From Parapedobacter defluvii (GTDB lineage: Bacteria > Bacteroidota > Bacteroidia > Sphingobacteriales > Sphingobacteriaceae): 64,000 nucleotides of DNA. Below the pieces are notes generated by a model. The model was given only the letters and a program-made list of their open reading frames with translations, made no database searches and had not been told where the DNA came from. This document shows, one piece after another, positions 1,650 through 60,675 of the stretch (position 1 is the stretch's first letter; every line of letters begins with the position of its first letter). The stretch is taken from assembly GCF_014642075.1 (NCBI RefSeq), contig NZ_BMIK01000023.1:1-64000 (forward strand), read 5' to 3'. Position numbers and translations under genes: made by a program.

Positions 1650-1651
1650 TT

Positions 1652-3434: not shown

Positions 3435-3542
3435 TGGTTTTAAAATACTGTCAAACAAAGCCACCAAAAGCCATCGGACACCGCTTTAGATAAGCCCTTT
3501 TAAATAGCCTCTAAATTTCCTGCATCACTAAAAATTTTTGTT

Positions 3543-5537
3543 ATGCAGGGAGAAGATGATTTGAGAGGATTAGCCAAAATCATGGCTTTTATGCGTGCTG
3601 TAAGTATTCTTTTGGTACTGATGCACTTTTATTGGTTCTGTTACGGGTTCTTTGCCGAACGTGGATGGGCACTGGAAATTATCGGTAAGATACTGACCAA
3701 TTTCAACCGTACCGCAGGGCTGTTTACCCACACCCTTTACACCAAGATTTTTGCATTGTTGTTGTTGGCGTTAAGCTGTCTCGGCACTAAGGGTGTAAAG
3801 AATGAAAAGATAACATGGTCTAAGATTTACACCGCCTTAGTTATCGGCTTTGTGCTGTTCTTTCTGAACACACCGTTGTTAAAACTGTCGGCAGAGGTTG
3901 CCACATTCCTTTACATACTTACAACAAGTCTGGGATATATAGCCTTGCTCATGGCAGGGGTATGGATGAGCCGACTACTCCGCAACAATCTGATGGACGA
4001 TGTTTTCAATAATGAAAACGAGAGCTTCCAACAGGAAACCCGTCTGATAGAAAATGAATACTCGGTCAATCTTCCGACAAAGTTTTTTTACAAAGGCAAG
4101 TGGAACAATGGATGGATTAATATCGTAAACCCTTTTCGGGCTTCGATTGTACTTGGTACTCCCGGCTCCGGAAAATCCTACGCCATCGTAAACAACTACA
4201 TCAAGCAACATATCGAAAAGGGGTTTGCGATGTATATCTACGATTTCAAGTTTGACGACCTGTCCACCATTGCCTACAACCATTTGCTGAAACACTCCGA
4301 GAAGTATAAGGTTAAGCCCAAGTTTTATGTTATCAATTTTGACGACCCACGCCGTAGCCACCGATGCAATCCCCTAAGCCCTGCCTTTATGACGGATATT
4401 TCCGATGCTTACGAAGCCTCTTACACCATCATGTTAAACCTCAACAGGTCGTGGATTTTGAAGCAAGGGGATTTTTTCGTGGAAAGCCCAATTATATTGC
4501 TTGCTTCCATCATTTGGTTTCTGAAAATCTATGAAGACGGAAAGTATTGTACGTTTCCCCATGCTATTGAATTGCTGAATAAAAAATATGCAGATGTTTT
4601 TACGATACTTACCTCATATCCCGAACTTGAAAACTATCTTTCAGCTTTCATGGATGCGTGGCAAGGCGGAGCGCAAGACCAGTTGCAGGGGCAGATAGCA
4701 TCGGCAAAAATTCCGTTGTCACGGATGATTTCGCCACAGCTTTATTGGGTCATGACGGGGGATGATTTTTCACTGGACATCAATAACCCGCAGGAGCCTA
4801 AAATCTTGTGCGTTGGCAATAACCCCGACAGGCAAAATATTTACTCCGCAGCTTTGGGCTTATACAATTCAAGGATTGTAAAACTGATTAATAAAAAGGG
4901 ACAGCTTAAAAGTTCCGTTATCATTGATGAGTTGCCCACGATTTATTTCAGGGGATTGGATAACCTGATTGCAACAGCCCGTAGTAATAAGGTAGCTGTC
5001 TGTTTGGGCTTTCAGGATTTTTCGCAACTGACAAGGGATTACGGCGATAAAGAGAGTAAAGTAATACAGAATACCGTTGGTAATATATTTTCCGGTCAGG
5101 TGGTTGGCGAAACAGCAAAAAGTCTTTCGGAACGCTTTGGAAAAGTATTGCAGAAAAGACAGAGCATGACCATCAACCGAAATGATAAATCCACCTCCAT
5201 ATCTACCCAACTGGATAGCCTGATACCTGCATCCAAAATCTCAACGCTCACACAGGGTATGTTTGTCGGTGCGGTTTCCGACAACTTCGATGAACGCATC
5301 GAGCAGAAAATATTCCACGCTGAAATTGTAGTAGATAATGATAAGGTTGCTGCCGAAACCAAAGCCTACAAAAAAATACCGCAGATATTATCCTTTACCG
5401 ATGAAAACGGAGCGGATAATATGAAACAGGAAATAGAAGCCAATTACAAACAGGTAAAGCAAGATGTTATGACCGTTGTTGAAAGCGAAATGGAGCGTAT
5501 TAAGAATGACCCGGATTTGCAACACTTGGTGCAGTAG
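3543..5537 (+). CDS. mobC: Conjugation coupling protein MobC/TraG (YWFCY domain, type IV secretion ATPase)
   Basis: 664 residues, apparently full length. N-terminal membrane helices (about residues 15-145) contain the signature YWFCY at 30-34, typical of Bacteroidota conjugative-transposon coupling proteins. The cytoplasmic ATPase domain has Walker A GTPGSGKS at about 205-212 and Walker B VIIDE at about 459-463. The family delivers the relaxase-DNA complex to the mating channel at the inner membrane. The usual partners mobA, mobB and the tra genes are absent from the window, so this is an orphan: the end of a conjugative element whose rest is deleted or elsewhere. Cargo genes follow downstream. 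Confidence 0.9.
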   Translation: MQGEDDLRGLAKIMAFMRAVSILLVLMHFYWFCYGFFAERGWALEIIGKILTNFNRTAGLFTHTLYTKIFALLLLALSCLGTKGVKNEKITWSKIYTALVIGFVLFFLNTPLLKLSAEVATFLYILTTSLGYIALLMAGVWMSRLLRNNLMDDVFNNENESFQQETRLIENEYSVNLPTKFFYKGKWNNGWINIVNPFRASIVLGTPGSGKSYAIVNNYIKQHIEKGFAMYIYDFKFDDLSTIAYNHLLKHSEKYKVKPKFYVINFDDPRRSHRCNPLSPAFMTDISDAYEASYTIMLNLNRSWILKQGDFFVESPIILLASIIWFLKIYEDGKYCTFPHAIELLNKKYADVFTILTSYPELENYLSAFMDAWQGGAQDQLQGQIASAKIPLSRMISPQLYWVMTGDDFSLDINNPQEPKILCVGNNPDRQNIYSAALGLYNSRIVKLINKKGQLKSSVIIDELPTIYFRGLDNLIATARSNKVAVCLGFQDFSQLTRDYGDKESKVIQNTVGNIFSGQVVGETAKSLSERFGKVLQKRQSMTINRNDKSTSISTQLDSLIPASKISTLTQGMFVGAVSDNFDERIEQKIFHAEIVVDNDKVAAETKAYKKIPQILSFTDENGADNMKQEIEANYKQVKQDVMTVVESEMERIKNDPDLQHLVQ

Positions 5538-5603
5538 AAGCATTTGTTAAACACAGATTGTTCTGACACGTAAACCAAAAGTTTTTTCAACCACTAAAGA
5601 GAT

Positions 5604-5626
5604 TACTTAACATAGGTTCATTGCCT
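5604..5626 (+). repeat. 23-bp direct repeat, left copy
   Basis: The sequence begins TACTTAACATAGG and ends TTCATTGCCT, and is identical to 11275-11297 in the same orientation. This copy lies 66 nt after mobC and 41 nt before the HD gene. The pair brackets 5.6 kb of cargo genes. Confidence 0.8.
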
Positions 5627-5667
5627 GATTTTTCTATTCTTGAGACCTTAGCAGAAAATAATGTGAT

Positions 5668-6186
5668 ATGAAATATAAGGACATAGGAGAATCAGAGAAA
5701 TTAGACCAAGTAATCAAAGAGATGAAAAATATTTTCAGAACTGTACCATATGGCGTCGATCACACAATGAAGGTGTTAGAAAATACACGGACGATTATTG
5801 AAAGAGAAAATGTAGACAGTCAGACTGGTTGTATTATAGAGTTAAGTGCTGTTTTACACGACATAGGTTCTGTGGAAGCATTACGCAAATATGGATCAAT
5901 GGAGGGACATCTCCAAGAGCAGGAAGGAGTACCAATTGCAAGAAATATATTAAGTGAACATAATTATGAACCATTCGTAATTGAAAGAGTATGTTATATA
6001 GTTGGAAACCATCACACGCCTGAAAAAATAGATGGAAAAGATTTTCAGATTCTTTGGGAGGCAGACCTTATTGAAAACATGCAAGTTATGGATTGCACTA
6101 AGGACACAGAAACCTTAAGACAATTTGTTTCAAAAAAAATCAAAACACAAGCGGGTAAGGCGCTTGCTTTATGTAAATACAGTTAA
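5668..6186 (+). CDS. HD-domain phosphohydrolase
   Basis: 172 residues. The metal-binding pattern of the HD superfamily is visible: His in YGVDHTMKV, the HD pair in VLHDIG, His-His in VGNHHTPEK, and Asp in WEADLIEN. Such proteins hydrolyse phosphate esters or nucleotides in the cytoplasm; the substrate cannot be told. It is a single gene with its own intergenic region, first in the cargo set after mobC, and unrelated in function to the next gene, a barrel starting 17 nt later. Confidence 0.8.
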   Translation: MKYKDIGESEKLDQVIKEMKNIFRTVPYGVDHTMKVLENTRTIIERENVDSQTGCIIELSAVLHDIGSVEALRKYGSMEGHLQEQEGVPIARNILSEHNYEPFVIERVCYIVGNHHTPEKIDGKDFQILWEADLIENMQVMDCTKDTETLRQFVSKKIKTQAGKALALCKYS

Positions 6187-6203
6187 TCGGGGGAAATTTG
6201 GTA

Positions 6204-7109
6204 ATGAAATTTATTATTTTATTTTTCCTGACATTCACGTGTTATGATATAGTTGCTCAAATACAGATACAAGTCAAAGCAGAGTATTTAGGAGAATCAA
6301 GCTATAGGAAGACCGACGGTAAAACCTATCAAAAAGTGGGAGATGCAAAAGGTTCCGCTGTAATTTATCAAGCGGATGTACACATTCCTCTGTCGGTGAA
6401 GCTAAATGAAAAGAATCGTCCTACAATATGGTCGATAAGCGGAAGATTTGCACAGGCGCGATTAAACAATCGTAATTTTGACGAACCTATAGTAACGGAT
6501 AGAATTATGAATGTTGGCTTGAATCTAAATCATTTACGTCCTTTGAACCATAAATGGTCAATTATGGCAAGTATAGGTGGAGGCACATACATGCCGAGTA
6601 CGGAGTTTTCCCAAATAAGATTCAAAAACACACTTGGTAGTATCGGAACAGTATTCATATATCATTTAAGGTCAAACTTGGACTTAGGGGTAGGAGCTGC
6701 TATCAATAACTCCTTTGGATATCCGATGTTATTTCCAGCACTTTATCTCAATTGGAAAATGGAAAGGAAATATAATGTTGAAATCAATGTTTTGGACGGC
6801 TTGGAAATGTGTTTCCGATATGACCTGAACAACATCTTCCGATTAAATGTAATCGGGGAGATGAATGGACAAACAGCTCTTTTAGAACAAGATGGAAAAG
6901 ATAAGATTTTCTCGCATGCTTATATAATAGGAGGCGTTCGTCCAGAGATAAAAATTGGCGACAACATATTCTTAAATGTCACGGCCGGAATTAACGCTTG
7001 GAGACCATCGCAAATGACTGAAAGAACGATAAAAAGTATATTCAAAAAACAACAGTACTACTTTAAGGCTTCGCCCTACGTTGCTACGCAGTTAAAAATA
7101 GTGTTATGA
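6204..7109 (+). CDS. Outer-membrane beta-barrel-like protein (DUF6268-type)
   Basis: About 301 residues from the ATG at 6204; an in-frame TTG two codons earlier is less likely. A hydrophobic signal peptide (KFIILFFLTFTCYDIVAQ) precedes many alternating strands ending in an aromatic-poor KASPYVATQLKIVL. The overall look, including LNLNHLRPLNHKWSIMASIGGGTY and DLGVGAAINNSFGYP, resembles DUF6268 outer-membrane proteins. Probably located in the outer membrane; function unknown. It may be co-transcribed with the HD gene. Confidence 0.65.
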   Translation: MKFIILFFLTFTCYDIVAQIQIQVKAEYLGESSYRKTDGKTYQKVGDAKGSAVIYQADVHIPLSVKLNEKNRPTIWSISGRFAQARLNNRNFDEPIVTDRIMNVGLNLNHLRPLNHKWSIMASIGGGTYMPSTEFSQIRFKNTLGSIGTVFIYHLRSNLDLGVGAAINNSFGYPMLFPALYLNWKMERKYNVEINVLDGLEMCFRYDLNNIFRLNVIGEMNGQTALLEQDGKDKIFSHAYIIGGVRPEIKIGDNIFLNVTAGINAWRPSQMTERTIKSIFKKQQYYFKASPYVATQLKIVL

Positions 7110-7149
7110 ATAATATAGGCTGATAACAAGCTAAAAAATTAAACAAAAA

Positions 7150-7630
7150 ATGAAGTCTAAAATTAAGATTAGTAAACTTTACCCAAACGACAAAACTTCG
7201 ATAGACAAAATTGCAGATTGGTACTTTAGCGAATGGAATACACCGATAAAAAAGACCATTAAAAGATTATCAAATCAACCCAGTTACGATACAATTTTTC
7301 AAGCAATATTGACTATTGATGGAGAATTAGTCGCAACAGGTAGACTTTGTAACAATGTCAATATCTACAATAAACTTCCTGAATTGAAACAATTTAAACC
7401 ATGGATTGCGTTGCTTTTATACTCAGCCTGAATACCGGAACAAAGGATTAGGACGGAAATTATTAGAATTCATTGAACGGAACGCAAAGGCAAATAAAAT
7501 CAATAAGATTTATCTTTATACATTTACAGCCGAGTCCTTTTACAAAAGTAATGGCTGGAAAGAAATAAAAAAAGTTGATTATAAAAGCCATAAGACTGTT
7601 GTAATGGAAAAAAGTATAATCGAAACGTAG
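7150..7630 (+). pseudogene. GNAT acetyltransferase with a frameshift
   Basis: Two overlapping frames make one GNAT protein. The first gives MKSKIKISKLYPND up to LKQFKPWIA. The second gives FYTQPEYRNKGLGRKLLEFIE, containing the acetyl-CoA loop (RNKGLG), and ends TVVMEKSIIET. The switch falls at the T run in GCTTTTATAC (about 7411-7419), where one missing T would restore the frame. Either a recent inactivation or a sequencing slip. An intact protein would acetylate an unknown small molecule or protein. Confidence 0.8.
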
Positions 7631-7642
7631 AAAAGCCAGTTG

Positions 7643-7703
7643 CCCATAACGTGGAAGTGTAATAGCCGCCGATAACAATTGATAATGTAAAACTTGTTAT
7701 GGG
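7643..7703 (+). repeat. attC-like imperfect inverted-repeat site (61 bp)
   Basis: CCCATAAC at 7643-7650 pairs exactly with GTTATGGG at 7696-7703. Inside, AAGT and ACTT form a second pair. Size and two-box layout resemble integron attC sites, and it lies directly downstream of a single small gene. No integron integrase is in the window, so this is only a resemblance. Confidence 0.3.
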
Positions 7704-8274
7704 TTTAACGAGAATTTTACTAAAAAAAGACCCTTATAATATGATATATACAGAAAATGAAGTGTTCGACATAATTCTAAACGGTGAGCATACACCAAAA
7801 GTCGTTCTCATGTGTGGACTGTCAGGATCCGGAAAAACCACATTCGCAAAACAGTTAGAATGTTATGGTTTTCATAGGCTATCGGTCGATGAAGAAATAT
7901 GGAATAACTATGGTCAGTTCGGAATAGATTATGCTGAAGAAGAATATGATAAGCTATCAGCTTTAGCAGAAAAGGCACTGTTTATTCAGTTTTTGGAACT
8001 TCTAAAATCAAAACGGAATATAGTAGTAGACTTTAGCTTCTGGCAAAAAGAGAAGCGTAACGAGTTTAAGCGGATAGTGGAAACAAACCACGGAAAGTGG
8101 TTTCTTGTTTATATGAACCCTCCTATTTCAGCAATAAAAAACAGACTGAAAATAAGAAATAAAACTTTTGAGGCCAATGCCGCTTTTCCGATTACAGATT
8201 CCATCCTAAACAAATATATAGACAGCTTTCAAATTCCCGAACAAGAGAATCAATTGGAAATTGTATCTATATAA
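7699..8274 (+). CDS. P-loop AAA/kinase-like ATPase
   Basis: 191 residues. Walker A GLSGSGKTT lies at about residues 40-48, after MCGL, followed by RLSVDEEIW and VVDFSFWQKEKR, and RLKIRNKTF as a lid-like segment. This is the pattern of small predicted kinases related to zeta-toxin and chloramphenicol phosphotransferase folds. The substrate is unknown; phosphorylation of a small molecule or antibiotic is possible. A second start (MIYTENE, at 7741) would be equally plausible. The start codon lies inside the attC-like repeat. Confidence 0.7.
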   Translation: MGLTRILLKKDPYNMIYTENEVFDIILNGEHTPKVVLMCGLSGSGKTTFAKQLECYGFHRLSVDEEIWNNYGQFGIDYAEEEYDKLSALAEKALFIQFLELLKSKRNIVVDFSFWQKEKRNEFKRIVETNHGKWFLVYMNPPISAIKNRLKIRNKTFEANAAFPITDSILNKYIDSFQIPEQENQLEIVSI

Positions 8275-8301
8275 ACACAGAGCGGTTGAGATGATTGTAC
8301 T

Positions 8302-8318
8302 TAAATTTGCTAAATTTG
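8302..8318 (+). promoter_or_regulatory. -7 boxes for the AraC gene
   Basis: Two perfect TAAATTTG boxes at 8302-8309 and 8311-8318 lie 16-25 nt before the ATG at 8334. The leader would be very short. A clear -33 TTG at the ideal distance was not found. Confidence 0.4.
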
Positions 8319-8333
8319 TTAGAAAAAATCAGG

Positions 8334-9125
8334 ATGGATATCAAAATAATACAGCCTGTACCACCTCTACGAAAACATATTCGTTTTTTCTTTATAATGG
8401 AAAATACGAGCACTGCTTTTATTGGAAAATTCAAAATAATTCCCGAGGGCGTACCGGGTATGATTTTTCAGGAAAATCCCACGGTCTTTTACGATAAAGA
8501 CAAGCAAACATTACCCCAATCTTTCTTATTTGGGCAAGCTACTCAGTACTCACAGCTTACGGCAACCGGTAGTTTTCGAAATATTGGCGTCAGTTTCCAA
8601 CCCGCAGCTTTAAGACCTGTTTTCAGAATCGAAGCAATTGAATTAACGCAACGACACATTGACATCAATGATTTAGTTAAAACCACTATAAATGACCAAC
8701 TTCTAAATACGCAAACATTAGAACAAAAAGTAGCGGTTTTAGAACATTTTTTCTTACAACAAACAACAGACTGTCAAAGTGAAAATGATAAAGTAAGATT
8801 TGCGTTAAACCAGTTTCAAAAAGGTCAGGAATTAAAACAGGTGCAAGCCGATTTGAGAATATCAGAACGCTCGTTAGAACGTCTGTTTAAATCATATATA
8901 GGCATTTCCCCAAAGTTGTATTCAAGAATCTGTCGCTTTCAGTCAGCTTTAAAAACGCTAAGAACGGCTAACTTTAATGCTCTTACGGAAATAGCCTATT
9001 TAGAGAATTATTTTGACCAATCTCATTTTATCAGAGATTTTAAATATTTTACAGGCACGACTCCAAAGTCATTTCTTCTTAATGCAAACGAACAATTGCC
9101 CAATTTTCCGGAATTGAAGTTTTAG
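8334..9125 (+). CDS. AraC-family transcriptional regulator
   Basis: About 263 residues from MDIKIIQPVPPLRKHIRFFF; an upstream in-frame ATG at 8295 is less likely because promoter boxes lie between. The N-terminal ligand domain is of the DUF6597 type. The C-terminal AraC DNA-binding domain has LRISERSLERLFKSYIGISPKLYSRICRFQSAL and ENYFDQSHFIRDFKYFTGTTPKSF, the two helix-turn-helix motifs. It is followed by a VOC gene 73 nt later, a common pairing in Bacteroidota, so it may control that gene. Confidence 0.85.
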   Translation: MDIKIIQPVPPLRKHIRFFFIMENTSTAFIGKFKIIPEGVPGMIFQENPTVFYDKDKQTLPQSFLFGQATQYSQLTATGSFRNIGVSFQPAALRPVFRIEAIELTQRHIDINDLVKTTINDQLLNTQTLEQKVAVLEHFFLQQTTDCQSENDKVRFALNQFQKGQELKQVQADLRISERSLERLFKSYIGISPKLYSRICRFQSALKTLRTANFNALTEIAYLENYFDQSHFIRDFKYFTGTTPKSFLLNANEQLPNFPELKF

Positions 9126-9165
9126 TACTGTCGGTTTTATCCAATTTTCAAAAAACGGGGGACTT

Positions 9166-9173
9166 TAACTTTG
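9166..9173 (+). promoter_or_regulatory. -7 box for the VOC gene
   Basis: A perfect TAACTTTG lies 25 nt before the start at 9199. No clear -33 TTG is visible at the right spacing. Confidence 0.45.
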
Positions 9174-9198
9174 TTGAATTAATCAAAAACAGTTTAAA

Positions 9199-9582
9199 AT
9201 GAAAAGAGTAATTGATTGGTTTGAAATTTATACATCCGATTTTGACAGGGCAAAGAAATTTTACACAACAGTATTTGACTGCGGATTTAATGAAACGACA
9301 ATGAACAATGAAAGACACAGCCAAATGAGATATGCCATTTTTGAAAGCAGTGAAAACAAGCAAGAGATTGGCGGTGCGCTTGTTAGAATGGATGAAGCAA
9401 AACCCGGTATTGGCGGTGTTTTAATTTATTTTGCAACCGAAGAAATCAATACGGTATTAAACCGTGTTGAAGCTGCAGGTGGAAAAATTATTCGTCGAAA
9501 GTTGAACGTGGGGGATTTTGGTTCTATTGCTTTAATAGAAGATACAGAGGGGAATATGATTGGATTACATGCTAAAAAATAG
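9199..9582 (+). CDS. VOC-superfamily (glyoxalase/bleomycin-resistance fold) protein
   Basis: 127 residues with the paired beta-alpha-beta-beta-beta fold. The N-terminal half is VIDWFEIYTSDFDRAKKFYTTVFDCGF, and the C-terminal half carries GGVLIYFATEEINTVLNRVEAAGGKI and ALIEDTEGNMIGLHAKK. The terminal Glu and His positions are those of metal ligands or their remnants. The family covers lyases, dioxygenases and antibiotic-binding proteins; which applies is unknown. It has its own -7 box and follows the AraC gene. Confidence 0.85.
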   Translation: MKRVIDWFEIYTSDFDRAKKFYTTVFDCGFNETTMNNERHSQMRYAIFESSENKQEIGGALVRMDEAKPGIGGVLIYFATEEINTVLNRVEAAGGKIIRRKLNVGDFGSIALIEDTEGNMIGLHAKK

Positions 9583-9624
9583 CTTCATTATAATTGCACT
9601 TGATATCAATAATAAAATAAGGAA

Positions 9625-10476
9625 ATGGGAAGAGATAAAGTCATAAAGCCGGATAATACCGCAGTAAGAACCGCATTATGGAGAGCGTTACACGTTCAGA
9701 CAGATGCAAAACCTCATATACTTGAAGATGAAATAGGATTCAAGTTAATTGCACCTGATGATGATTGGCAGGAACGGCCTGACATGAAATATACCAAGCG
9801 GTTGCGGGCTTCTATCGTAGCCCGTTCACGTTTTATTGAAGATATAGCTAAAGGGCAAATTGAAAAAGGAGTAAAACAATACGTTTTGCTTGGTGCAGGA
9901 TTGGATAGTTTTGCCCAACGGAACACGGCCATAAGTTCCTATGTTGATATTTATGAAATTGACCAACCCGACACATTAACGTGGAAAGAAGAAAAGCTGA
10001 TTGAAAACGGCTATAAAATCCCCGGCAATCTCCACTTTGTACCTGTCGATTTTGAAATCTCATCTTGGTGGGACGAGCTATTAAATAAAGGTTTTAATGT
10101 TGAACAAAGGGCTTTTGTATCTTGTATCGGTGTTACGCTTTATCTTACCAAAGAAGCGATTACCGACACACTGAAAAAAATGACTTTGCTTGCACCTGGT
10201 TCTACTATTGCAATGGCCTTTTATCTGCCATTGGAATTACTTGATGAAGAAGACAAGCCATTAATGGAAATGTCGATAAAAGGAGCGGCAGCTTCAGGTA
10301 CTCCTTTTGTAAGTTTTTTTTCGGTTGAAGAAATTATAAAACTCGCTGAAAAAGTAGGTTTAAAAGAAATACAGACAATCTCCACAAAAGATATGACGGA
10401 AAAATACTTTAAGAACAGAACCGACAACCTTCTACCAGCAAGCGGAGAATTTTTTTTAGTGGCAAAGACCTTATAA
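9625..10476 (+). CDS. SAM-dependent methyltransferase, LCMT/PPM1-type (TIGR00027-like)
   Basis: 283 residues. The SAM-binding motif VLLGAGLDSFAQR (about residues 88-100) and the acidic loop YEIDQPDTLTWKEE are those of the leucine carboxyl methyltransferase-like family, as are N-terminal NTAVRTALWRALH and RASIVARSRFIED. In bacteria these often act on small molecules or polyketide-like substrates; the target here is unknown. It is a single gene of the cargo set. Confidence 0.85.
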   Translation: MGRDKVIKPDNTAVRTALWRALHVQTDAKPHILEDEIGFKLIAPDDDWQERPDMKYTKRLRASIVARSRFIEDIAKGQIEKGVKQYVLLGAGLDSFAQRNTAISSYVDIYEIDQPDTLTWKEEKLIENGYKIPGNLHFVPVDFEISSWWDELLNKGFNVEQRAFVSCIGVTLYLTKEAITDTLKKMTLLAPGSTIAMAFYLPLELLDEEDKPLMEMSIKGAAASGTPFVSFFSVEEIIKLAEKVGLKEIQTISTKDMTEKYFKNRTDNLLPASGEFFLVAKTL

Positions 10477-10614
10477 AACATGAAAAAGAATAGTTCCTTG
10501 CAACCAATATGTAGTGATATAAAATGGCTGAAAGTAATGTTTTTGCTGGTGTTTTACCGTAGGTTAACATAGTTATGAGATATCCGCACAAAAACCGGTT
10601 TATTATAAAAATGC

Positions 10615-10622
10615 TAAATTTG
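10615..10622 (+). promoter_or_regulatory. -7 box for the Crp-like gene
   Basis: A perfect TAAATTTG lies 42 nt before the start at 10665, in a 188-bp gap with no other recognised feature. No clear -33 TTG is visible. Confidence 0.45.
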
Positions 10623-10664
10623 TATTTCCTTTCTTTAAAGACAGACTAAAAAGAGAATATTTTT

Positions 10665-11231
10665 ATGGGGCACATCAGAGAATACTACGAGCGGATACTA
10701 AAATTACAGGAAACAGAATGGGAATTTATAGCTTCCCACTTTGACAGGAGGGTTTTTGCCAAAAACGAAACCATCACACGACAGGGCGAAACAGAAAAGT
10801 ACCTTTCCTTTGTAGAAACAGGCATCGTTCGATTTTATATTCCAGATGATGAAAACGAACTGACTTTTAATTTCTGTTTTGATAAAGAATTTACCTGTGC
10901 TTACAATTCATTCCTGACCCAGACACCATCTGAATACGAATTGCAGGCATTGACGGAAACCGTGGTTTGGCAAATATCTTATGATGATTTGCAAAAAGTA
11001 TATGCAGAGACCAAAGCAGGAAACTATTTAGGGCGTTTTGTGTCGGAGAAACTGTTTTTGCAAAAAGGCAAAAGAGAATTGTCGCTTTTAAAACATACAG
11101 CAAAAGAACGGTATCTAAACCTGTTCAATGAGCAACCTGATATTTTAAAATTCATTCCGTTAAAATACGTTGCTTCCTATATCGGGATAACACCACAGGC
11201 TTTGAGCCGGATACGCAGACAAATTGCATAG
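10665..11231 (+). CDS. Crp/Fnr-family transcriptional regulator
   Basis: 188 residues. An N-terminal cyclic-nucleotide-binding-like barrel (FAKNETITRQGETEKYLSFVETGIVRFY) is followed by the dimer helix and a short helix-turn-helix at the C-terminus (LKYVASYIGITPQALSRIRRQIA). The key Arg and Glu of cAMP-binding Crp are not evident, so the effector is probably different or absent. It is a single gene with its own -7 box; targets unknown. Confidence 0.85.
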   Translation: MGHIREYYERILKLQETEWEFIASHFDRRVFAKNETITRQGETEKYLSFVETGIVRFYIPDDENELTFNFCFDKEFTCAYNSFLTQTPSEYELQALTETVVWQISYDDLQKVYAETKAGNYLGRFVSEKLFLQKGKRELSLLKHTAKERYLNLFNEQPDILKFIPLKYVASYIGITPQALSRIRRQIA

Positions 11232-11274
11232 CAATCACAAACATCGTTGAAAATCAACGGAATCCATGCGCAAA

Positions 11275-11297
11275 TACTTAACATAGGTTCATTGCCT
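11275..11297 (+). repeat. 23-bp direct repeat, right copy
   Basis: Identical to 5604-5626. It lies 43 nt after the Crp-like gene and 44 nt before the peptide deformylase gene, at almost the same distance before a start codon as the left copy (41 nt). It could be a recombination site or a shared regulatory block. Confidence 0.8.
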
Positions 11298-11341
11298 ACC
11301 ATGTTTATTCTTTGGAAATTTGTTGAAAAATCCAAAGAATA

Positions 11342-11926
11342 ATGAAACGAGCCATCTTAGCATACGGACACCATATCTTAAAACAGAAATGCAACGACAT
11401 CGAAAAGGATTATCCTGAATTGGATAAATTAATTGCCGATATGTGGGAAACGATGGAAAATGCCAATGGTTGCGGATTGGCATCACCACAGATAGGACTT
11501 CCGGTTAGATTGTTTATCGTGGACAGTAAATCAACTTTTGATAATCTCGGAGAAGAAGAGAGAAAGTTTTATTTCCCCCAAGATGATAAAGGCATAATGG
11601 AAACTTTCATCAATGCCAAAATCATCCAACGGTCTGAAGAACTTTGGGAAGACGAAGAGGGCTGTTTAAGTATTCCAAATTTATTCTACAAAGTAAAGCG
11701 GAATTGGGCGATAACGATTGAATATTATAATCGGAATTTTGAAAAGCAAATCCGTACATTCAGTGGAACGACCGCGCGAATGATACAGCACGAATACGAC
11801 CATACCGAGGGAGTTCTCTATCTCGATTATCTCAAGCCTTTGACAAAAAGGCTGATGGCTTCCAAACTTCAAAAAATCCTAAAAGGTCAAATTGTACCGA
11901 CCTATCCCATGAACTTTATACGATAG
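11342..11926 (+). CDS. def: Peptide deformylase (accessory copy)
   Basis: 194 residues. All three family motifs are present: GCGLASPQIG at about 43-52, EGCLS at 106-110, and the metal motif HEYDH at 150-154. The enzyme removes the formyl group from nascent proteins in the cytoplasm. The N-terminus YGHHILKQKC departs from the usual YGDPVLR, and an insertion precedes motif 2 (residues 62-82), as in the divergent cargo-type deformylases. It lies in an accessory region, so it is likely additional to a housekeeping def, which is not in this window. It could buffer against deformylase inhibitors; that is inference. Confidence 0.85.
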   Translation: MKRAILAYGHHILKQKCNDIEKDYPELDKLIADMWETMENANGCGLASPQIGLPVRLFIVDSKSTFDNLGEEERKFYFPQDDKGIMETFINAKIIQRSEELWEDEEGCLSIPNLFYKVKRNWAITIEYYNRNFEKQIRTFSGTTARMIQHEYDHTEGVLYLDYLKPLTKRLMASKLQKILKGQIVPTYPMNFIR

Positions 11927-11956
11927 AAAAAGCAGCCATCTTAAACATACTTACTT

Positions 11957-12487
11957 ATGATAAATATTAGAAAAGTCGACATAGATGACGTGATAACTAT
12001 TTCAAAATTGGGACGTATAACATTTTCAGATACGTTTGAGTCTTTTTTCAACGACAAGAACGACCTGTTGGATTACTTGGAAGACATTTTTTCGGAAAAA
12101 AGGATTCACGACAGTATACTAAAAGCGGAATCCATTTATTGGATTGCTTTCTACGATAGCATTCCTGTTGGTTATGCGAAAGTTAAACTGGACTTCACAA
12201 GCCAATTGATAATCCCACCAAAAACGTGCTATCTTGATAAGATTTATGTCGTAAAAAAATTTATAAGCAAAGGAATCGGTAAAGAACTGCATAAAATTTT
12301 AATGCAAGAAATAATTGCTTTGAAATATCAGCGTATTTGGCTCTCTGTATTAAAAGAGAATCAAAAGGCAATAAATTTTTATCACAAAAAGGGCTATCAG
12401 ATAATAAGTCAGTATTCACAAAACATTGGTTCTCAGAAATTCGACTTTTTTGTAATGGCACTGAATTTAGACGAAAAAGCTACATGA
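11957..12487 (+). CDS. GNAT-family N-acetyltransferase
   Basis: 176 residues. GNAT motif A is YLDKIYVVKKFISKGIGKELHKIL, containing the acetyl-CoA loop SKGIGK, and motif B is LSVLKENQKAINFYHKKGYQI. The substrate is unknown. It begins 30 nt after the deformylase gene and may be co-transcribed with it. It is the last plus-strand gene of the cargo block. Confidence 0.85.
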   Translation: MINIRKVDIDDVITISKLGRITFSDTFESFFNDKNDLLDYLEDIFSEKRIHDSILKAESIYWIAFYDSIPVGYAKVKLDFTSQLIIPPKTCYLDKIYVVKKFISKGIGKELHKILMQEIIALKYQRIWLSVLKENQKAINFYHKKGYQIISQYSQNIGSQKFDFFVMALNLDEKAT

Positions 12488-12551
12488 ATTTGCATACGTA
12501 AGTAAGTTCACCTGTAGGGACAACCTCTTATTCATTTGGATGTTTTGTCAA

Positions 12552-13331
12552 TTAACCCATTGCTAAACGAATAGCCTGTTCAATGGGGGTATAGCCGACA
12601 TCAGAACCGGAAATAGTTAATTCACCCCTTAACAGCAAAGGTGGTTGTGCTATAAATTTAGGAGTTACTCCTCTGTGAAGTTGAGCTGAGTGAACCAAAA
12701 AGGGATGGCATAAATAAACTGTACCTGCCTTACCCATTGCATAGACTTCTTTTCTCTTTGGCAGCCCGTCTAACTTGCTTGCGAGCTCCATAAATGAAAG
12801 TCCAAGTTCACCCTCTTGATGTAATAACCCAGCAACGTCAATGTGAGAACCTTCGTAAATAATTGTTGGCGCATCATTTTCGCTGACATCCGAATACAAT
12901 ACCAACATCAATAAAGCTCTACCTTTTGATTTGACATTGGCACGCCATTTAAAATAATTATTAGGATCATTTCCAGGAAAACTTACATCTACGTGTTTAC
13001 CTGTATCATTGGGCTCCTGATCAGACGGAAACCTGACAGGGAATGTGCCAACACTTCGACAAGGAATCCATTTATCTTCACCAATCAATTGGTTAAAAGC
13101 TGAATATAGCTTTGGTGTGTTTAGCGATTCAATAAAAGGTCGCTGCATGTACATCCCTAAACGAATGACAGGTTCCGTCCATGTAGAAGGATTTGACCTA
13201 TCACAAGGAAGGTCGTTCCATAGAATATCTAAAGCTGCATCTGCAACTTCTTGAGAAAATGCATGATCAATCCGGACAAAACCGTTAAGAATAAACTGCT
13301 CTATTTCCCTTTTACTTAGTATTTCAGACAT
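12552..13331 (-). CDS. PhyH-family dioxygenase-like protein, complete copy
   Basis: 259 residues starting at MSEIL. A double-stranded beta-helix oxygenase of phytanoyl-CoA dioxygenase type is suggested by HVD in GKHVDVSFPG, the distal His in HPFLVHSAQ, and basic residues after it (HRGVTPKF). Members use Fe(II) and 2-oxoglutarate; the substrate here is unknown. It is the intact paralogue of 66-740 and ends with ISGSDVGYTPIEQAIRLAMG, which the other copy lacks. It is transcribed against the cargo genes and has a conserved upstream region shared with copy 1. Confidence 0.75.
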   Translation of the reverse strand: MSEILSKREIEQFILNGFVRIDHAFSQEVADAALDILWNDLPCDRSNPSTWTEPVIRLGMYMQRPFIESLNTPKLYSAFNQLIGEDKWIPCRSVGTFPVRFPSDQEPNDTGKHVDVSFPGNDPNNYFKWRANVKSKGRALLMLVLYSDVSENDAPTIIYEGSHIDVAGLLHQEGELGLSFMELASKLDGLPKRKEVYAMGKAGTVYLCHPFLVHSAQLHRGVTPKFIAQPPLLLRGELTISGSDVGYTPIEQAIRLAMG

Positions 13332-13848
13332 GTTTTTTTGTTTTTCTCAACTACTTCGAAGAAACAACAAATATCTGTTGACCAACTATTTAGTCAAGAT
13401 TGTTAATAAAAAATTGAATAGTAAAATAAAGCGCTATATATGGAGCATAGCGTATTGCTCAAGAACTAAGCTCGAAAGGATATTATAACATCACAGTCAT
13501 TCTCATACAACAAAACTAAAAATTATCTACAAACTAACAAAACAAAAAGGGGCATAAAAATATCACACCCTAAAAACAGATCCCATTTCTAACAAACGAC
13601 TGCTGACTTAAAACTTAATTCAGTTTATCGTCTTGGTTTTGCTGTATTCCATAAAAAATCAGCCATACGACAAAAGCCTTGGCAAATCCTATCCACGAGT
13701 TTTCATAGACAATGCGGCAAAACCTCCTCATAAATAATAACAAAACCGCTCACAATCCCACATCCGACATCACATTTAAAAATTCTTTGTATATTCGCTA
13801 AGTTACAGGGTACCAAACTATTTGGCCGTTTCTGTGTTGGCTTACTAA
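13332..13848. other. Intergenic region left of the IS element
   Basis: No gene was seen. The part up to about 13557 matches the upstream region of dioxygenase copy 1. The remainder, up to the target duplication, probably held the original promoter of the Gfo/Idh/MocA gene at 15199 before the IS inserted. No convincing TAnnTTTG box was found there. Confidence 0.5.
13432..13452. promoter_or_regulatory. Inverted repeat upstream of dioxygenase copy 2
   Basis: CGCTAT (13432-13437) and ATAGCG (13447-13452) pair across a 9-nt spacer, corresponding to CGCTTT/AAAGCG before copy 1. Both arms changed together between the copies. Confidence 0.45.
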
Positions 13849-13857
13849 TTAAAAACC

Positions 13858-15174
13858 CACTAGTGTCCCATTAAAAATGGGACGTTGTTAAAAATTAAAT
13901 AAAGTTGGCCCATTCGGTCCAAATCGTTCTTTGTCATATTGAAATTTAGTTTTGCTAAAGAGATCTCGAAGGTTCGTTTTATCAGTCAGTGAGATACTCA
14001 ATATTTGGAGCACTTCGTAGGTGGTTCTGTTCAGTTTCATGTCGTTTTGAACGATTGCCACCAGGCAGTATGTGCATATTGCGGCGTAGACCTGGATCCG
14101 GACGGCATTCTCGGTAGTGCCCCAGAACTTTTTGATTTTGAGGTGCTGTTTCAGCCATTTGAAGAACAGTTCCACCTGCCACCGGTTCTTGTAAAGTTCA
14201 GCGATCTGAAGAGCTGGGATGTGGGTGGCATTGGTCAGGAAGACAAACTCACGCTTTTGTTCTTCATCCCAGTATCTGACCAGACGGATAGGCTCGGGAT
14301 AATACTGCTTCGGATAGAAGCCGGTCAATTCGATCGTTACATCGGAAAGTACGTTCCCGGGCAGCCTGCGTTTCCATTTGATGGATTTGCATTGAAGGTT
14401 TTTCTTTGCCCTGACAACGAAATAGGCCCCGATCTGATGTATCTTATACAGCATCCTGAAGTTGTTGTAGCCCCGGTCAAAGATATAGTATGAGCCCGGT
14501 TCATAGGGGATTTCTCTCATAGCCTTTGAATCGTGCACCGAAGCCTCGGTAATATGGAAGAATGCCGGTATCTGTGTTTCCACATCATATAATGTATGCA
14601 CTTTGATGCCGCCTTTTTTCTTACGGAACTTCGCCCACCAGAATACCGAAAGGCAGAGATCGATCGTCGTTGAGTCAAAAGCGTAAATGTTACCACCCAG
14701 ATGGAATATATTGGTGGCACGCTTCTCCCTTGCTTCGTTTACCAGATAGTAAGCATACTCTTCAAAGATGTGGTAGTCTCTATCCTGATTGGCTCTGGCC
14801 AAAGATGATTTGGAGACATTCCTGCCCATTCCCAAATGGTAACATTTGGAGTGATGGGCATCAAGGGCGACGATCAGGTCCCTTAAACTGTCACGATTGG
14901 AGAGTTGGCCGAACATCAGGGCAAGAAGTTGATTCCAACAACTGAAATGCTTCACATATCTGTCGCCATTGTATCTGGCAACAATACGATTGAACTTACT
15001 CCGATTTAGAAACGAGACCAATTGAGCGAAAACGTATTTATCTTGAAACATCTGCCATCAGATTAACCTGATGCTAAGCTATGTTTTCAAGTCTGTTCGC
15101 TTGAAAAACCCCTGTAACTAACTATATTTCAAATATTTCAAAGAACTATTTTGGATTTTAATGGGACACTAATG
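13858..15174 (-). mobile_element. IS4-type insertion sequence, complete (1317 bp)
   Basis: The ends are 18-bp inverted repeats, CACTAGTGTCCCATTAAAA-type on the left and the complement of CATTAGTGTCCCATTAAAA on the right, differing at the third base. A 9-bp target duplication TTAAAAACC flanks it (13849-13857 and 15175-15183). One intact transposase gene is inside. The perfect target duplication and intact gene indicate a recent insertion. It sits 24 nt before the start codon at 15199. Confidence 0.92.
13888..15051 (-). CDS. IS4-family transposase
   Basis: 387 residues, intact. An N-terminal DUF4372-like domain (FNRIVARYNGDRYVKHFSCWNQLLALMFGQLSNRDSLRDL) precedes a DDE catalytic domain: Asp in IYAFDSTTIDLCLSVF, Asp in YIFDRGYNNF, and the Glu of YKNRWQVELFFKWLKQHLKIKKF (the Y-R-E signature). 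The enzyme cuts and pastes the element. The gene fills most of the 1317-bp element, leaving short ends. Base composition is richer in G and C than the cargo region to the left. Confidence 0.93.
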   Translation of the reverse strand: MFQDKYVFAQLVSFLNRSKFNRIVARYNGDRYVKHFSCWNQLLALMFGQLSNRDSLRDLIVALDAHHSKCYHLGMGRNVSKSSLARANQDRDYHIFEEYAYYLVNEAREKRATNIFHLGGNIYAFDSTTIDLCLSVFWWAKFRKKKGGIKVHTLYDVETQIPAFFHITEASVHDSKAMREIPYEPGSYYIFDRGYNNFRMLYKIHQIGAYFVVRAKKNLQCKSIKWKRRLPGNVLSDVTIELTGFYPKQYYPEPIRLVRYWDEEQKREFVFLTNATHIPALQIAELYKNRWQVELFFKWLKQHLKIKKFWGTTENAVRIQVYAAICTYCLVAIVQNDMKLNRTTYEVLQILSISLTDKTNLRDLFSKTKFQYDKERFGPNGPTLFNF

Positions 15175-15198
15175 TTAAAAACCATTAAATGCTAGCGT

Positions 15199-16317
15199 AT
15201 GAATTCACGTCGCGACTTCCTGCAGAAATTAACCGCTTCCGCCATTGCCATTCCCTTTCTATCGTCTGTCAGGGCATGGAATGAACCCATCCATTCAGCT
15301 GACAACCCTCAAGGTTCCGTGTTGCGGGTCGCATTGATGGGGTTGGGTGGATATGCTTCCATAGTGGCTGAGGCAATGCAAAAATGTAAGCGGGCAAAAA
15401 TAACCGGTCTGATTAGCGGTACTCCTGCTAAACTCAATGAATGGGGCACGAAATACAACGTACCGGAGAAAAACCGCTATAACTATGAAACCTTCGATGA
15501 TATTAAGAACAATCCTGATATCGATGTCGTCTACGTAACCACACCGAATGCATTGCATCACGACCAGGTCATCCGCGTGGCCCGTGCCGGGAAACACGCA
15601 ATCAGTGAAAAACCGATGGCTCTCAATGCGAAAGATGCACAGGAAATGGTAGACGCTTGTTCGGAAGCCGGGGTTAAACTGTTGGTAGGTTACCGGATGC
15701 ATTTTGAGCCCAAAACGCTTGAAGTAATACGGATGCGTAGCGAGGGCGAGTTCGGAAAAATCATGTTTTTTCAGGGACAAAGCGGTTTCCGGATCGGTGA
15801 TCCAAACCAGTGGCGATTAAATAAAGCATTGGCTGGTGGTGGATCGCTCATGGACATCGGCATCTACGCAATCAACGGCGCACGTTATATGATAGGCGAA
15901 GAACCGATTTGGGTGACAGCTCAGGAAACGAAAACGGATACCGTCAAATTTAAAGAAGGGGTCGACGAAACCATCCAGTTTCAGATGGGCTTCCCGAGTG
16001 GTGCCGTGGCATCTTGTCTATCTACCTACAACATGAATTACCTGGACCGCTTTTACTTAAACGGCGAAAAAGGTTTTGCAGAACTGCAACCCTCCACCGG
16101 ATATGGCCCTATCAAAGGACGGACGAACAAGGGGGAGCTCACGCAGCCCCACATCACCCATCAAACTTTACAGATGGATGCCATGGCCGGAATCATCCTC
16201 GATGGCCATGCACCTGCTGTACCCGTTGACGGCGCAGAAGGCGTAAAAGATTTAAAAATTATCGATGCAATCTACGCCGCATGTGCATCCGGAAAACGAC
16301 AGGAACTAAATATTTGA
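15199..16317 (+). CDS. Gfo/Idh/MocA-family oxidoreductase with a Tat signal
   Basis: 372 residues. The N-terminus MNSRRDFLQKLTASAIAIPF is a twin-arginine signal, so the protein probably acts folded in the periplasm. The Rossmann core VALMGLGGYASIVAEAM and the family motif EKPM (in HAISEKPMALNA) are present, resembling glucose-fructose oxidoreductase-type proteins with tightly bound NADP. The sugar substrate is unknown. The IS element lies immediately upstream, so its native promoter has been moved 1.3 kb away and expression may be altered. Confidence 0.88.
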   Translation: MNSRRDFLQKLTASAIAIPFLSSVRAWNEPIHSADNPQGSVLRVALMGLGGYASIVAEAMQKCKRAKITGLISGTPAKLNEWGTKYNVPEKNRYNYETFDDIKNNPDIDVVYVTTPNALHHDQVIRVARAGKHAISEKPMALNAKDAQEMVDACSEAGVKLLVGYRMHFEPKTLEVIRMRSEGEFGKIMFFQGQSGFRIGDPNQWRLNKALAGGGSLMDIGIYAINGARYMIGEEPIWVTAQETKTDTVKFKEGVDETIQFQMGFPSGAVASCLSTYNMNYLDRFYLNGEKGFAELQPSTGYGPIKGRTNKGELTQPHITHQTLQMDAMAGIILDGHAPAVPVDGAEGVKDLKIIDAIYAACASGKRQELNI

Positions 16318-57780: not shown

Positions 57781-58434
57781 CCGCATTTCGGGCACATCAT
57801 CTGCCGCAAAAAAACGCCCTGCTGTCGCGTTCCGTATTTCCGTTATGCTAACTCCCGGAGCACGTTCAATCAGATGGAATCCTCCGTTTTGGATATCGAT
57901 TTCAAAGACCGCCAATTCAGTCACCACTTTACGGATACAGCGTACGCCTGTCAAGGGTAAGGTACACCGCGGAAGTAGCTTGCTCTCCCCCGCTTTGTTT
58001 ACCTGCTGCATTGCTACAATGATATTTTTCGCAGAAGCCACGAGATCCATCGCTCCGCCCATTCCCTTCACCAGCTTACCCGGGATCTTCCAATTGGCAA
58101 TGTCGCCGTATTCGGATACTTCCATGGCACCTAATATCGTAAGGTCTACCTTTTGTGCCCGGATCATACCAAAACTCATTGCCGAATCAAATACTGCAGA
58201 ACCCGGCAGCATGGTGATGGTCTGCTTCCCGGCATTGATCAGATCCGGATCTTCCGAACCTTCGTACGGAAACGGCCCCATACCCAACAAACCGTTTTCA
58301 GATTGCAGCACAACATCGATATCTTCTGGAATGTAGTTGGCTACCAGCGTGGGGATACCAATTCCCAGATTGACGTAATAGCCGTCTTTGATTTCCCGCG
58401 CAATCCGTTTTGCGATTCCCTCTTTATCCAGCAT
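57775..58434 (-). CDS. scoB: 3-oxoacid CoA-transferase subunit B
   Basis: 219 residues from MLDKEGIAKRIAREI, which matches the family start. The catalytic Glu motif is SENGLLGMGPFPYEG; also GYYVNLGIGIPTLVANYIPE and GAMEVSEYGDIANWKIPGKLVKGMGGAMDLV. With subunit A it exchanges CoA between succinyl-CoA and acetoacetate. Its start overlaps the scoA end by 11 nt, so the two are coupled. Confidence 0.95.
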   Translation of the reverse strand: MLDKEGIAKRIAREIKDGYYVNLGIGIPTLVANYIPEDIDVVLQSENGLLGMGPFPYEGSEDPDLINAGKQTITMLPGSAVFDSAMSFGMIRAQKVDLTILGAMEVSEYGDIANWKIPGKLVKGMGGAMDLVASAKNIIVAMQQVNKAGESKLLPRCTLPLTGVRCIRKVVTELAVFEIDIQNGGFHLIERAPGVSITEIRNATAGRFFAADDVPEMRL

Positions 58435-59161
58435 AATCTTCCGCTTTGGTAATGTCCAATCCTTCGTATTTGCGAACCGTCCGTTGTTCGATTCGCTTTT
58501 CATAATTCATACCCTGAAAAATACGGTGAACATAGATACCCGGTGTATGGATTTGATCGGGGTCCAGTGTCCCCTCAGGAACCAACTCTTCCACCTCAGC
58601 TACCGTCACCTTACCGGCCATTGCCATCACAGGATTGAAATTGCGGGCGGTATGCCGATACATGAGATTGCCTGCCGTGTCGCCCCGCCATGCCTTCACC
58701 AATGCAAAATCTGCTTCAAAGGCCCTTTCCAACAGGTAGTCTTTACCGCCAAAGGTGCGTACTTCCTTGCCCTCGGCAACCTCAGTCCCCACGCCTGCCG
58801 GTGTAAAAATTGCCGGCATTCCATATCCAGCTGCAAGACACCGGGTAGCCAATGTACCCTGCGGGATCAATTCCACCTCCAGCTCACCACTCAATAGTTG
58901 GCGCTCAAACTCTGCATTTTCACCGACATAAGAAGCAATCATTTTTTTTACCTGACGTTTCTGTAACATCAACCCGATGCCAAAATCATCTACTCCCGCA
59001 TTGTTTGAAATGCAGGTAAGACCCGAAACCCCTTTTCTCACCAACTCATTGATACAGTTTTCGGGAATGCCGCACAGGCCGAATCCACCCAGCATCAGGG
59101 TCATGCCGTCAGCAAGATCAGCCAGGGCTTCTCCCGCGTTTTTTACGACTTTATTAATCAT
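58424..59161 (-). CDS. scoA: 3-oxoacid CoA-transferase subunit A
   Basis: 245 residues. Subunit A signatures are MINKVVKNAGEALADLADGMTLMLGGFGLCGIPENCINEL, the glycine-rich CoA loop, and FIGGKDYL-type EVRTFGGKDYLLERAFEADFALVKAWRGDTAGNLMYR. It forms the heterodimer with ScoB for acetoacetate use in the cytoplasm. It is first gene of the scoAB operon. Upstream lies the promoter of the divergent cysteine-rich protein gene. Confidence 0.95.
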   Translation of the reverse strand: MINKVVKNAGEALADLADGMTLMLGGFGLCGIPENCINELVRKGVSGLTCISNNAGVDDFGIGLMLQKRQVKKMIASYVGENAEFERQLLSGELEVELIPQGTLATRCLAAGYGMPAIFTPAGVGTEVAEGKEVRTFGGKDYLLERAFEADFALVKAWRGDTAGNLMYRHTARNFNPVMAMAGKVTVAEVEELVPEGTLDPDQIHTPGIYVHRIFQGMNYEKRIEQRTVRKYEGLDITKAEDYAG

Positions 59162-59227: not shown

Positions 59228-59259
59228 TTGGAATTTTTCTAAATAAAACACTAAATTTG
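59228..59259 (+). promoter_or_regulatory. Promoter of the small cysteine-rich gene
   Basis: TTG (59228-59230), a 21-nt spacer and a perfect TAAATTTG (59252-59259) stand 8 nt before the ATG. The elements match the Bacteroidota consensus and support transcription of the short gene. Confidence 0.7.
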
Positions 59260-59267
59260 CCCCTGAG

Positions 59268-59444
59268 ATGTTTGAGGAGTTTTCTTTTTTTACGTTTGAG
59301 TGCCCGGCATGCCCCTTACAGCCGATTGATCCTCAAAATTTTAAGGGACTTAACCCTTACCAGGAGGGGAGCGGCTGTGATTTCAAAAAATGCTGCAAGA
59401 AGTACAAGCGGGGAAAGCGGTGCAAGAAATGTCCAAAACGATAA
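59268..59444 (+). CDS. 58-residue cysteine-rich protein, possible zinc-binding
   Basis: A short open frame beginning MFEEFSFFTFECPACPL and ending CKKYKRGKRCKKCPKR. It has seven cysteines: CPAC at 12-15, C37, the pair C42-C43, and CKKC at 52-55. Two CxxC knuckles suggest a zinc ribbon; the C-terminus is strongly basic, so nucleic-acid binding is possible. It has a good promoter and fills the gap between scoA and the minus-strand MFS gene, ending 1 nt before that gene's stop. I recall similar small proteins in Sphingobacteriaceae, but cannot check. Function unknown. Confidence 0.75.
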   Translation: MFEEFSFFTFECPACPLQPIDPQNFKGLNPYQEGSGCDFKKCCKKYKRGKRCKKCPKR

Positions 59445-59445: not shown

Positions 59446-60675
59446 TCACCGTTCCACAAAATCCAAATCCCGGTCGAAGCTTTCTTTCAATTGGCTCAGC
59501 GCAAAGATCGCAACACCAGTCAGCAGAAAAATCATCACATAAGCCGCCGTGACAATATCCGAATGGCGGACAAAAAATTCAAACAACAACGTGGAAGGAA
59601 TCAATGCTCCGCGCACAAAATTCGGTGCAGTGGTGGTTACTGTCGCGCGTAGATTGGTACCAAACTGCTCGGATGCGATGGTTACAAAAGTCGCCCAATA
59701 ACCAATGGAAATTCCCATAAAGAAAGCAATCCAATGAAATCGTTGTTCGGTGAGTCCCTCACTGCTCAAATACCATGAAGATGTTGCGATGATCAGTACC
59801 TGAAATAAAAATACCGCCAGTCTCCGCGATTTGGTAAGCTGGGCAAACAGTCCGGCGAGCACGTCGCCAAGCGACAACCCCAGGTAAGTAAACAGAATTC
59901 CTTTACCCGCACTCAGGGTTACCGGTGCTCCAAGCGCCTTTCCAAATTCAGGCGCTTGTGTAACCAATATCCCCACGACAAACCAAATGGGCAGCCCGAT
60001 CAACAGACAATACAGATACCTTTTAAATCGCTCTTTATCGGTAAATAGCATGCTGAATTTTCCTTTTTCCACCTGTTTGTCTTCCACTCCTTTAAACATA
60101 GCCGATTCAAAGGTACCCACCCTTAGGATGAGCAATAACAACCCCATGGCGCCTCCGGCAAAATACGCGTTGCGCCAATCGAAGAGTTCAGACACATAAT
60201 ATGCCGCAACGGCACCGAGCACCCCTATCGAAGCGACGATCATCGTACCATACCCCCGTTTATCTTTTTGCATGCTCTCACTCACCAGGGTAATGCCTGC
60301 TCCCAGCTCACCCGCCAATCCGATACCTGCTACGAGGCGGACGATGGCATAGGAGTGGATATCCTGCACAAACCCGTTTGCAATATTGGCCAACGAATAC
60401 ATCAGGATGGAGCCAAACAGTACTTTAATCCGCCCAAAACGGTCGCCCAATATCCCCCACAATATGCCACCGAGCAGCAGTCCACCCATTTGCATATTGA
60501 GCACATATTCCCCATCTATGCGCATCTCTTCTTCCGGTATACCGATGTCCCGAAAACTCTGCACACGGACAATGGAAAAAACAACGAGATCATAGATATC
60601 AACGAAATAACCCAATGCGGCTACAATTACCAATAACCAGGCATTTTTGGTTTCCGACAGGCTCTTTTTGGTCAT
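59446..60675 (-). CDS. MFS transporter
   Basis: 409 residues with about 12 transmembrane helices. MFS motif A is seen as ILWGILGDRFGRIKVLFGSILMYS, then RLVAGIGLAGELGAGITLVSESMQKDKRGYGTMIVASIG, the sugar/metabolite-proton symporter type of signature. It probably imports an organic acid or related compound in the inner membrane; substrate unknown. Single gene; no regulator is adjacent. Confidence 0.9.
   Translation of the reverse strand: MTKKSLSETKNAWLLVIVAALGYFVDIYDLVVFSIVRVQSFRDIGIPEEEMRIDGEYVLNMQMGGLLLGGILWGILGDRFGRIKVLFGSILMYSLANIANGFVQDIHSYAIVRLVAGIGLAGELGAGITLVSESMQKDKRGYGTMIVASIGVLGAVAAYYVSELFDWRNAYFAGGAMGLLLLILRVGTFESAMFKGVEDKQVEKGKFSMLFTDKERFKRYLYCLLIGLPIWFVVGILVTQAPEFGKALGAPVTLSAGKGILFTYLGLSLGDVLAGLFAQLTKSRRLAVFLFQVLIIATSSWYLSSEGLTEQRFHWIAFFMGISIGYWATFVTIASEQFGTNLRATVTTTAPNFVRGALIPSTLLFEFFVRHSDIVTAAYVMIFLLTGVAIFALSQLKESFDRDLDFVER

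Follow-up and report, generated by a model that had tools for sequence, protein, structure and literature searches.

A stretch of 64,000 nt from the Parapedobacter defluvii contig NZ_BMIK01000023.1 (the window) carries a real, conserved gene for a small cysteine-rich protein, and the family to which this protein belongs is without description in Pfam, NCBIfam, the PDB or the literature searched. The best explanation for the gene, one to which we give slightly less than an even chance, is that it encodes a four-cysteine [2Fe-2S] electron carrier that frees iron, and that it would be controlled by Fur and translated from an mRNA that is leaderless or nearly so. The gene, the elements in front of it, the parts of its product and its two flanking genes are listed in Table 1.

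Table 1. Positions in the window of the small-protein gene, its upstream elements and its neighbours
Feature	Position	Strand	Basis and remarks
CoA-transferase subunit gene, divergent	58424..59161	-	Pfam CoA_trans and synteny; outside the feature
Fur-box-like inverted repeat CTTGGAATTTTTCTAAA	59227..59243	+	13/16 to TTTAGAATnATTCTAAA; covers the -33 region and ends 8 nt before the -7 box
TTG, candidate -33 element	59228..59230	+	Sequence; inside the operator-like repeat
-7 box TAAATTTG	59252..59259	+	Bacteroidota consensus TAnnTTTG, as given in the cited text (PMC9723704); 8 nt 5' of the ATG
Small-protein gene	59268..59444	+	ATG to TAA, stop included; 58 aa, seven Cys
Linker, residues 21-31 (DPxxxKGLNPY)	59328..59360	+	Moderately conserved, mainly in members of the window's taxonomic family (alignments)
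Conserved core, residues 39-56, FKKCCKKYKRGKRCKKCP	59382..59435	+	CC-x8-C-x2-C = C42, C43, C52, C55; Cys in 56/56 alignment rows
MFS transporter gene, convergent	59446..60675	-	Pfam MFS_1 and synteny; outside the feature

An earlier, sequence-only reading of this DNA had proposed a short gene with seven cysteines and its own promoter, ending one base from a convergent neighbour. The frame is found in the sequence as claimed, a single base does separate its end from the MFS gene, and the proposed promoter, a TTG followed after a 21-nt spacer by the -7 box, is present. Whether the frame is conserved in relatives had been named beforehand as decisive, and it is present as protein in 71 of the 151 genomes of the taxonomic family, with one match in each (56-row profile, E 0.001). 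A single-sequence query at E 0.01 or better matched 70 of the 151, and in this search one genome (G090) gave a second, weak match carrying stops. All nine Parapedobacter genomes searched carry the gene. Substitutions that ignore codon positions had been named as evidence against it, and the opposite pattern, in the gene's favour, was observed: in the last 21 codons of eight Parapedobacter orthologues, pairwise differences number 19 at first, 26 at second and 278 at third codon positions, and the codon pairs comprise 243 synonymous versus 49 non-synonymous cases.

The gene extends beyond the family of the window. It was counted in 69 of 120 genomes of a second family of the class and in 69 of 395 genomes of a class-wide even draw, counts for which the best 30 matches of each search were inspected as sequence. 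A phylum-wide even draw gave matches in 22 of 395 genomes, at least two of them (L065 and L066) spurious. Named carriers among the matches listed include Parapedobacter pyrenivorans, P. soli, P. koreensis, P. luteus and P. lycopersici, together with Sphingobacterium, Edaphocola and Taibaiella; the contig scan for the family comprised at least 15 loci. Left out of the counts were L002 (E 0.208), L032, L047 (no ATG), L068 and L193. L065 and L066, which both lack the core and one of which contains a stop, were also removed, as was a spurious frame of L197. Searches for the window protein in phages and for one relative in plasmids found no copies; a viral-contig match (L032) aligned with residues 10-35 only and was discarded.

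The small gene keeps the same company in some genomes of the taxonomic family to which the window belongs, namely genes for CoA-transferase subunits, a uridine-kinase-like gene and the MFS gene. In the second family its neighbours are DnaJ-like and gcvP-like genes (named by eye). As the neighbours differ between the two families, they are uninformative on role, and an operon or neighbour partner as a clue to function was rejected for this reason. No conserved operon partner was seen in the neighbourhoods compared, and the gene appears to be a unit of its own. A terminator scan found none, and searches of the window with Rfam (at gathering scores) and for tRNA genes were negative. An 18-nt inverted repeat (78%) has its first arm (59261-59278) beginning just 5' of the ATG and its second (59330-59347) inside the 5' part of the gene, so that folding of the mRNA is possible.

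At the other end of the window, positions 1-16000 have a G+C content of 0.36-0.41 versus 0.44-0.51 further on. This low-G+C stretch, which resembles a portion of an integrated conjugative element, contains a conjugative coupling protein gene (3543-5537; YWFCY and T4SS-DNA_transf), a leucine carboxyl methyltransferase-like gene (9625-10476) and a DDE transposase gene (13888-15051). Two genes that by eye look closely similar and dioxygenase-like lie on the minus strand at 66-767 and 12552-13331, one near each side of the stretch; neither has a Pfam match at E 1e-5.

The position of the -7 box is characteristic of the family. When the first ATG is taken as the start in both groups, the box is found for 80 of 98 family members versus 52 of 338 neighbouring genes, and it lies 0-9 nt 5' of the ATG in 62 of 98 versus 24 of 338; the controls are neighbouring genes with free upstream space, and neither group is made up of genes independent by descent. 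With chosen family starts, 86 of 97 members have the box no more than 60 nt from the ATG and 66 of 97 have it at 0-9 nt, set against 52 of 337 neighbouring genes with a box and 24 of 337 with one at 0-9 nt; the chosen starts were picked to follow the -7 box and the controls kept their first ATG, and the first-ATG recount keeps the contrast. The commonest gap between box and ATG is 4 nt (38 of 97 members, chosen starts). To judge by its name, a -7 box should sit about 4 nt upstream of the transcription start, so that a 4-nt gap would leave the mRNA without a leader and the 8 nt of the window gene would give a leader of a few bases; from this spacing we infer that its mRNA is leaderless or nearly so. 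In Flavobacterium psychrophilum, leaderless transcripts made up 5.5% of the mRNAs examined, as stated in the cited text (PMC9723704). The layout of the small-gene promoter, with its box 0-9 nt from the ATG, is thus unusual for a phylum in which leaderless mRNAs are rare in one mapped species.

The TTG that had been read as a minus-33 box is present, but it lies within a conserved operator-like inverted repeat, and the earlier description is corrected to that extent. The consensus of the repeat in the family is TTTAGAATnATTCTAAA, of which the right half, TCTAAA, is best kept and the left half is looser; the repeat of the window itself has three mismatches of 16. With the first ATG taken as start throughout, a score of at least 13/16 is reached by 67 of 98 family promoters versus 5 of 338 neighbouring genes; with the chosen family starts, the counts are 70 of 97 versus 5 of 337. 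The consensus was derived from these same promoters, and independent support comes from sites elsewhere in the P. defluvii genome and from a published box. The family repeat matches ATTTAGAATTATTCTAAAT, the box that has been derived for Fur of Riemerella anatipestifer, and in electrophoretic mobility shift assays reported with it Fur bound four selected promoters with putative boxes (PMC5609570). A later Riemerella paper gives, in its account of the box, one of E. coli type instead (PMC7976709). The small-gene family and the Riemerella Fur regulon are alike in operator consensus and in the -7 box type of promoter, and no box among the 11 given in Table 5 of the earlier study is recognisably that of the small gene (PMC5609570).

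In the P. defluvii genome, a search with a 20-mer of this type, allowing up to three mismatches, gave 34 strand-matches, versus seven for the reversed pattern, and 24 distinct sites. Twenty of these were inspected, one being the small gene's own, and five precede iron-uptake genes named by Pfam: FeoA/FeoB, a siderophore-interacting protein and three TonB receptor plug genes. Others have hemA-like and respiratory genes downstream (by eye), and the remaining sites are without a clear iron link, one of them (L104) looking coding by eye. Twenty sites in two further genomes include one at a hemA gene, one at a gene for a di-haem peroxidase and one at a Fumerase/Lyase_1 pair, with many others lacking an obvious iron link. 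The pair is found in a genome of the same class (G355), where the box stands between the divergent Fumerase and Lyase_1 genes (Pfam; class I and class II fumarases by eye); this arrangement, with a Fur-type box near position 1503 of locus L245, looks like an iron-sparing switch. The P. defluvii genome encodes three FUR-family regulators. Two further palindromic Fur-type sites, L098 (G000:C18:32226) and L100 (G000:C20:9027), have no listed frame of at least 50 aa starting nearby, and since the L098 site bears a TATCTTTG -7 box, a small RNA or a very short gene is possible there.

On these grounds, the inverted repeat in front of the small gene is taken to be a predicted Fur box, and the gene is very probably regulated by iron. 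Repression by iron would follow from the placing of the repeat over the promoter. The remaining 31 of 98 family promoters fall short of 13/16. The three loci from Taibaiella and the two from Edaphocola are among them, along with several others, so iron control is not universal in the family.

The protein is short and basic throughout the family: 93 distinct proteins have lengths of 44-63 aa (mean 52) and net charges of +4 to +13, the window protein having +7. The seven cysteines had been expected to form a conserved set, and this did not hold; what is kept is the CC-x8-C-x2-C motif in the basic tail. Its four cysteines are invariant in the alignment (Table 1), C37 is Cys in 43 of 56 rows, and the columns of C12 and C15 are Cys in two of 56 rows each. 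The spacing between vicinal pair and CxxC is x8 in 91 of the 93 distinct proteins and x9 in the other two. Members were gathered with regular expressions requiring CC-xn-CxxC, which in part builds in the invariance of the four cysteines; every one of the 29 loci that came from a plain sequence search (L003-L031) carries the four-Cys core. These cysteines are best read as one metal site within a basic stretch of about 20 residues, and the pattern makes metal binding by the protein a probable property. An AlphaFold prediction (pLDDT 54.6, pTM 0.20) gave no usable model.

The four-Cys site and the basic tail are in line with a zinc-binding small protein, a zinc knuckle or ribbon associated for example with the ribosome or with DNA, and zinc would fit the four cysteines equally well. 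A zinc ribbon had been suggested in the earlier reading, which also considered a metal or redox sensor and made no mention of iron, the metal to which the regulatory context points. Of that reading, a small gene served by its own promoter is supported, as is a probable metal site formed by cysteines, and the zinc ribbon made of two CxxC motifs is not supported, for the first CxxC is nearly absent in relatives: a CxxC anywhere before the core occurs in five of the 93 distinct proteins, and two conserved CxxC pairs were not found. No zinc-finger family appears in the Pfam matches of the window protein or of 24 relatives, and the operator matches a Fur box that precedes iron-uptake genes at five of 20 sites examined. 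A zinc protein of this kind is unlikely in our view. Nucleic-acid binding through the basic tail, or a role as sensor, is possible for such a sequence.

The basic surface would suit either an acidic redox partner or RNA, and the latter leads to another reading, in which the protein, basic and under Fur control, would assist an iron-sparing response by binding RNA with its Lys/Arg tail, its cysteines holding zinc or a labile Fe-S cluster in a structural or sensing role. The length of 44-63 aa, the net charge of +4 to +13, the Fur-box promoter and the lack of a conserved operon partner in the neighbourhoods seen are in line with it. So is the parallel with FbpA, FbpB and FbpC of Bacillus subtilis, which the cited text describes as Fur-regulated small basic proteins and suggested RNA chaperones (PMC7430163). 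The likeness, small size, basic character and predicted Fur regulation, does not define homology, and the comparison is one of descriptions; unlike the small protein, the Fbp proteins are not credited with a cysteine core in the passages describing them, which also treat the RNA binding of FbpB itself as unproven (PMC7430163). Four cysteines at fixed spacing suggest, against this reading, a metal function, and we consider an RNA helper a minority possibility, fairly unlikely as matters stand. The same operator evidence, from family promoters and from iron-uptake sites in the P. defluvii genome, would also agree with an iron chaperone, buffer or regulator partner that tunes the iron response, for example by binding Fe(II) or Fur directly. 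Nothing specific counts against such a role, and CC-x8-C-x2-C would be an unusual site for an Fe(II) carrier; we hold it to be improbable.

Comparison with described proteins gave little. Searches run up to E 10 gave no Pfam family and no PDB chain for the window protein, and its one NCBIfam match is at chance level (TIGR03950, 9.3 bits versus a cut-off of 137.9). The 24 relatives gave three single chance-level Pfam matches (CARM1, DUF3069 and TSP3_bac) and, besides TIGR03950, scattered chance-level matches in NCBIfam. A literature search for five core peptide strings returned no match. The bacterioferritin-associated ferredoxin Bfd is a small [2Fe-2S] protein used when iron is scarce, and its cysteine pattern differs from CC-x8-C-x2-C; neither the window protein nor the 24 relatives match a ferredoxin or BFD Pfam model at E up to 10.

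The closest parallel in cysteine order is FhuF, the ferric-siderophore reductase of E. coli. FhuF is under Fur control and binds a [2Fe-2S] cluster through CC-x10-C-x2-C, a motif called unprecedented in the text cited (PMC8068687). Like FhuF, with its C-terminal module PF11575, the small protein has predicted Fur control and a vicinal Cys pair followed by CxxC at the C-terminus, and by eye some residues agree as well (CC-x-x-Y-[KR]). In contrast, FhuF has 262 residues and the small protein about 52, and the FhuF spacing, CC-x10-C-x2-C, occurs in none of the 93 distinct proteins. Homology had been raised by the weak matches to TIGR03950 (siderophore ferric reductase), which appear, with E values of 10 or below and 0.31 at best, in 12 of 25 members and in none of ten Cys-preserving shuffles of the window protein; a genome search with TIGR03950 gave no match anywhere, the controls included, and is uninformative. 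PF11575 (FhuF_C) has no match at the small gene at E 1 or better and is over the cut-off in none of 60 relatives. A profile was built from six FhuF C-termini out of 11 fetched loci, the other five having no stretch that fitted the regular expression. Against this HMM, 56 members score -2.17 bits on average versus -3.75 (sd 4.17) for 1120 Cys-preserving shuffles, a mean at the 63rd percentile of the shuffles. An hhalign comparison of the family with FhuF gave a probability of 1.7% and a P-value of 0.028 for the single comparison. Homology to FhuF is thus not supported, members scoring about as shuffles do. The order of the cysteines is kept and kinship is unsupported, so the small protein may resemble the cluster module of FhuF in function and yet be no FhuF.

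With the FhuF profile giving no separation and PF11575 no match, the Fe-S reading rests on analogy of motif. As a first guess, to which we give rather less than an even chance, we propose an Fe-S electron carrier that serves iron release. The wider idea, that a FhuF-like vicinal-Cys arrangement has been reinvented in Bacteroidota as a Fur-controlled mini-ferredoxin of about 50 residues, made from a leaderless mRNA and serving iron release, is a more speculative analogy and on the doubtful side.

The course of events that we infer, from Fur binding, direction of regulation and start site to identity of the metal, electron transfer and partner, would be as follows. With iron present, Fur-Fe(II) would occupy the repeat, which runs from -33 almost up to the -7 box, and so keep RNA polymerase out. 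When iron runs short, transcription would start from a -7 box close enough to the ATG to give an mRNA with little or no leader. The vicinal-cysteine motif would assemble a [2Fe-2S] cluster, and the protein, as a tiny electron carrier, would help to release iron from ferric siderophores or ferritin, its basic tail docking it to an acidic partner. A siderophore-interacting protein as a fixed partner was considered and rejected: it occurs in 18 of 151 genomes, 15 of them with the small gene, and is absent from eight of the nine Parapedobacter, all of which carry the gene.

The usual reductases are mostly lacking from these bacteria, with FhuF_C over the cut-off in none of 60 genomes and the siderophore-interacting protein confined to the 18 of 151. 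Pfam, NCBIfam and the PDB contain no model or chain for the family, and tables of iron-responsive genes therefore probably list the gene only as hypothetical, if at all. To our knowledge, the reduction and release of iron, whether imported or stored, is poorly mapped in Bacteroidota. A small protein widely kept under a predicted Fur box is a clear candidate for a missing step there.
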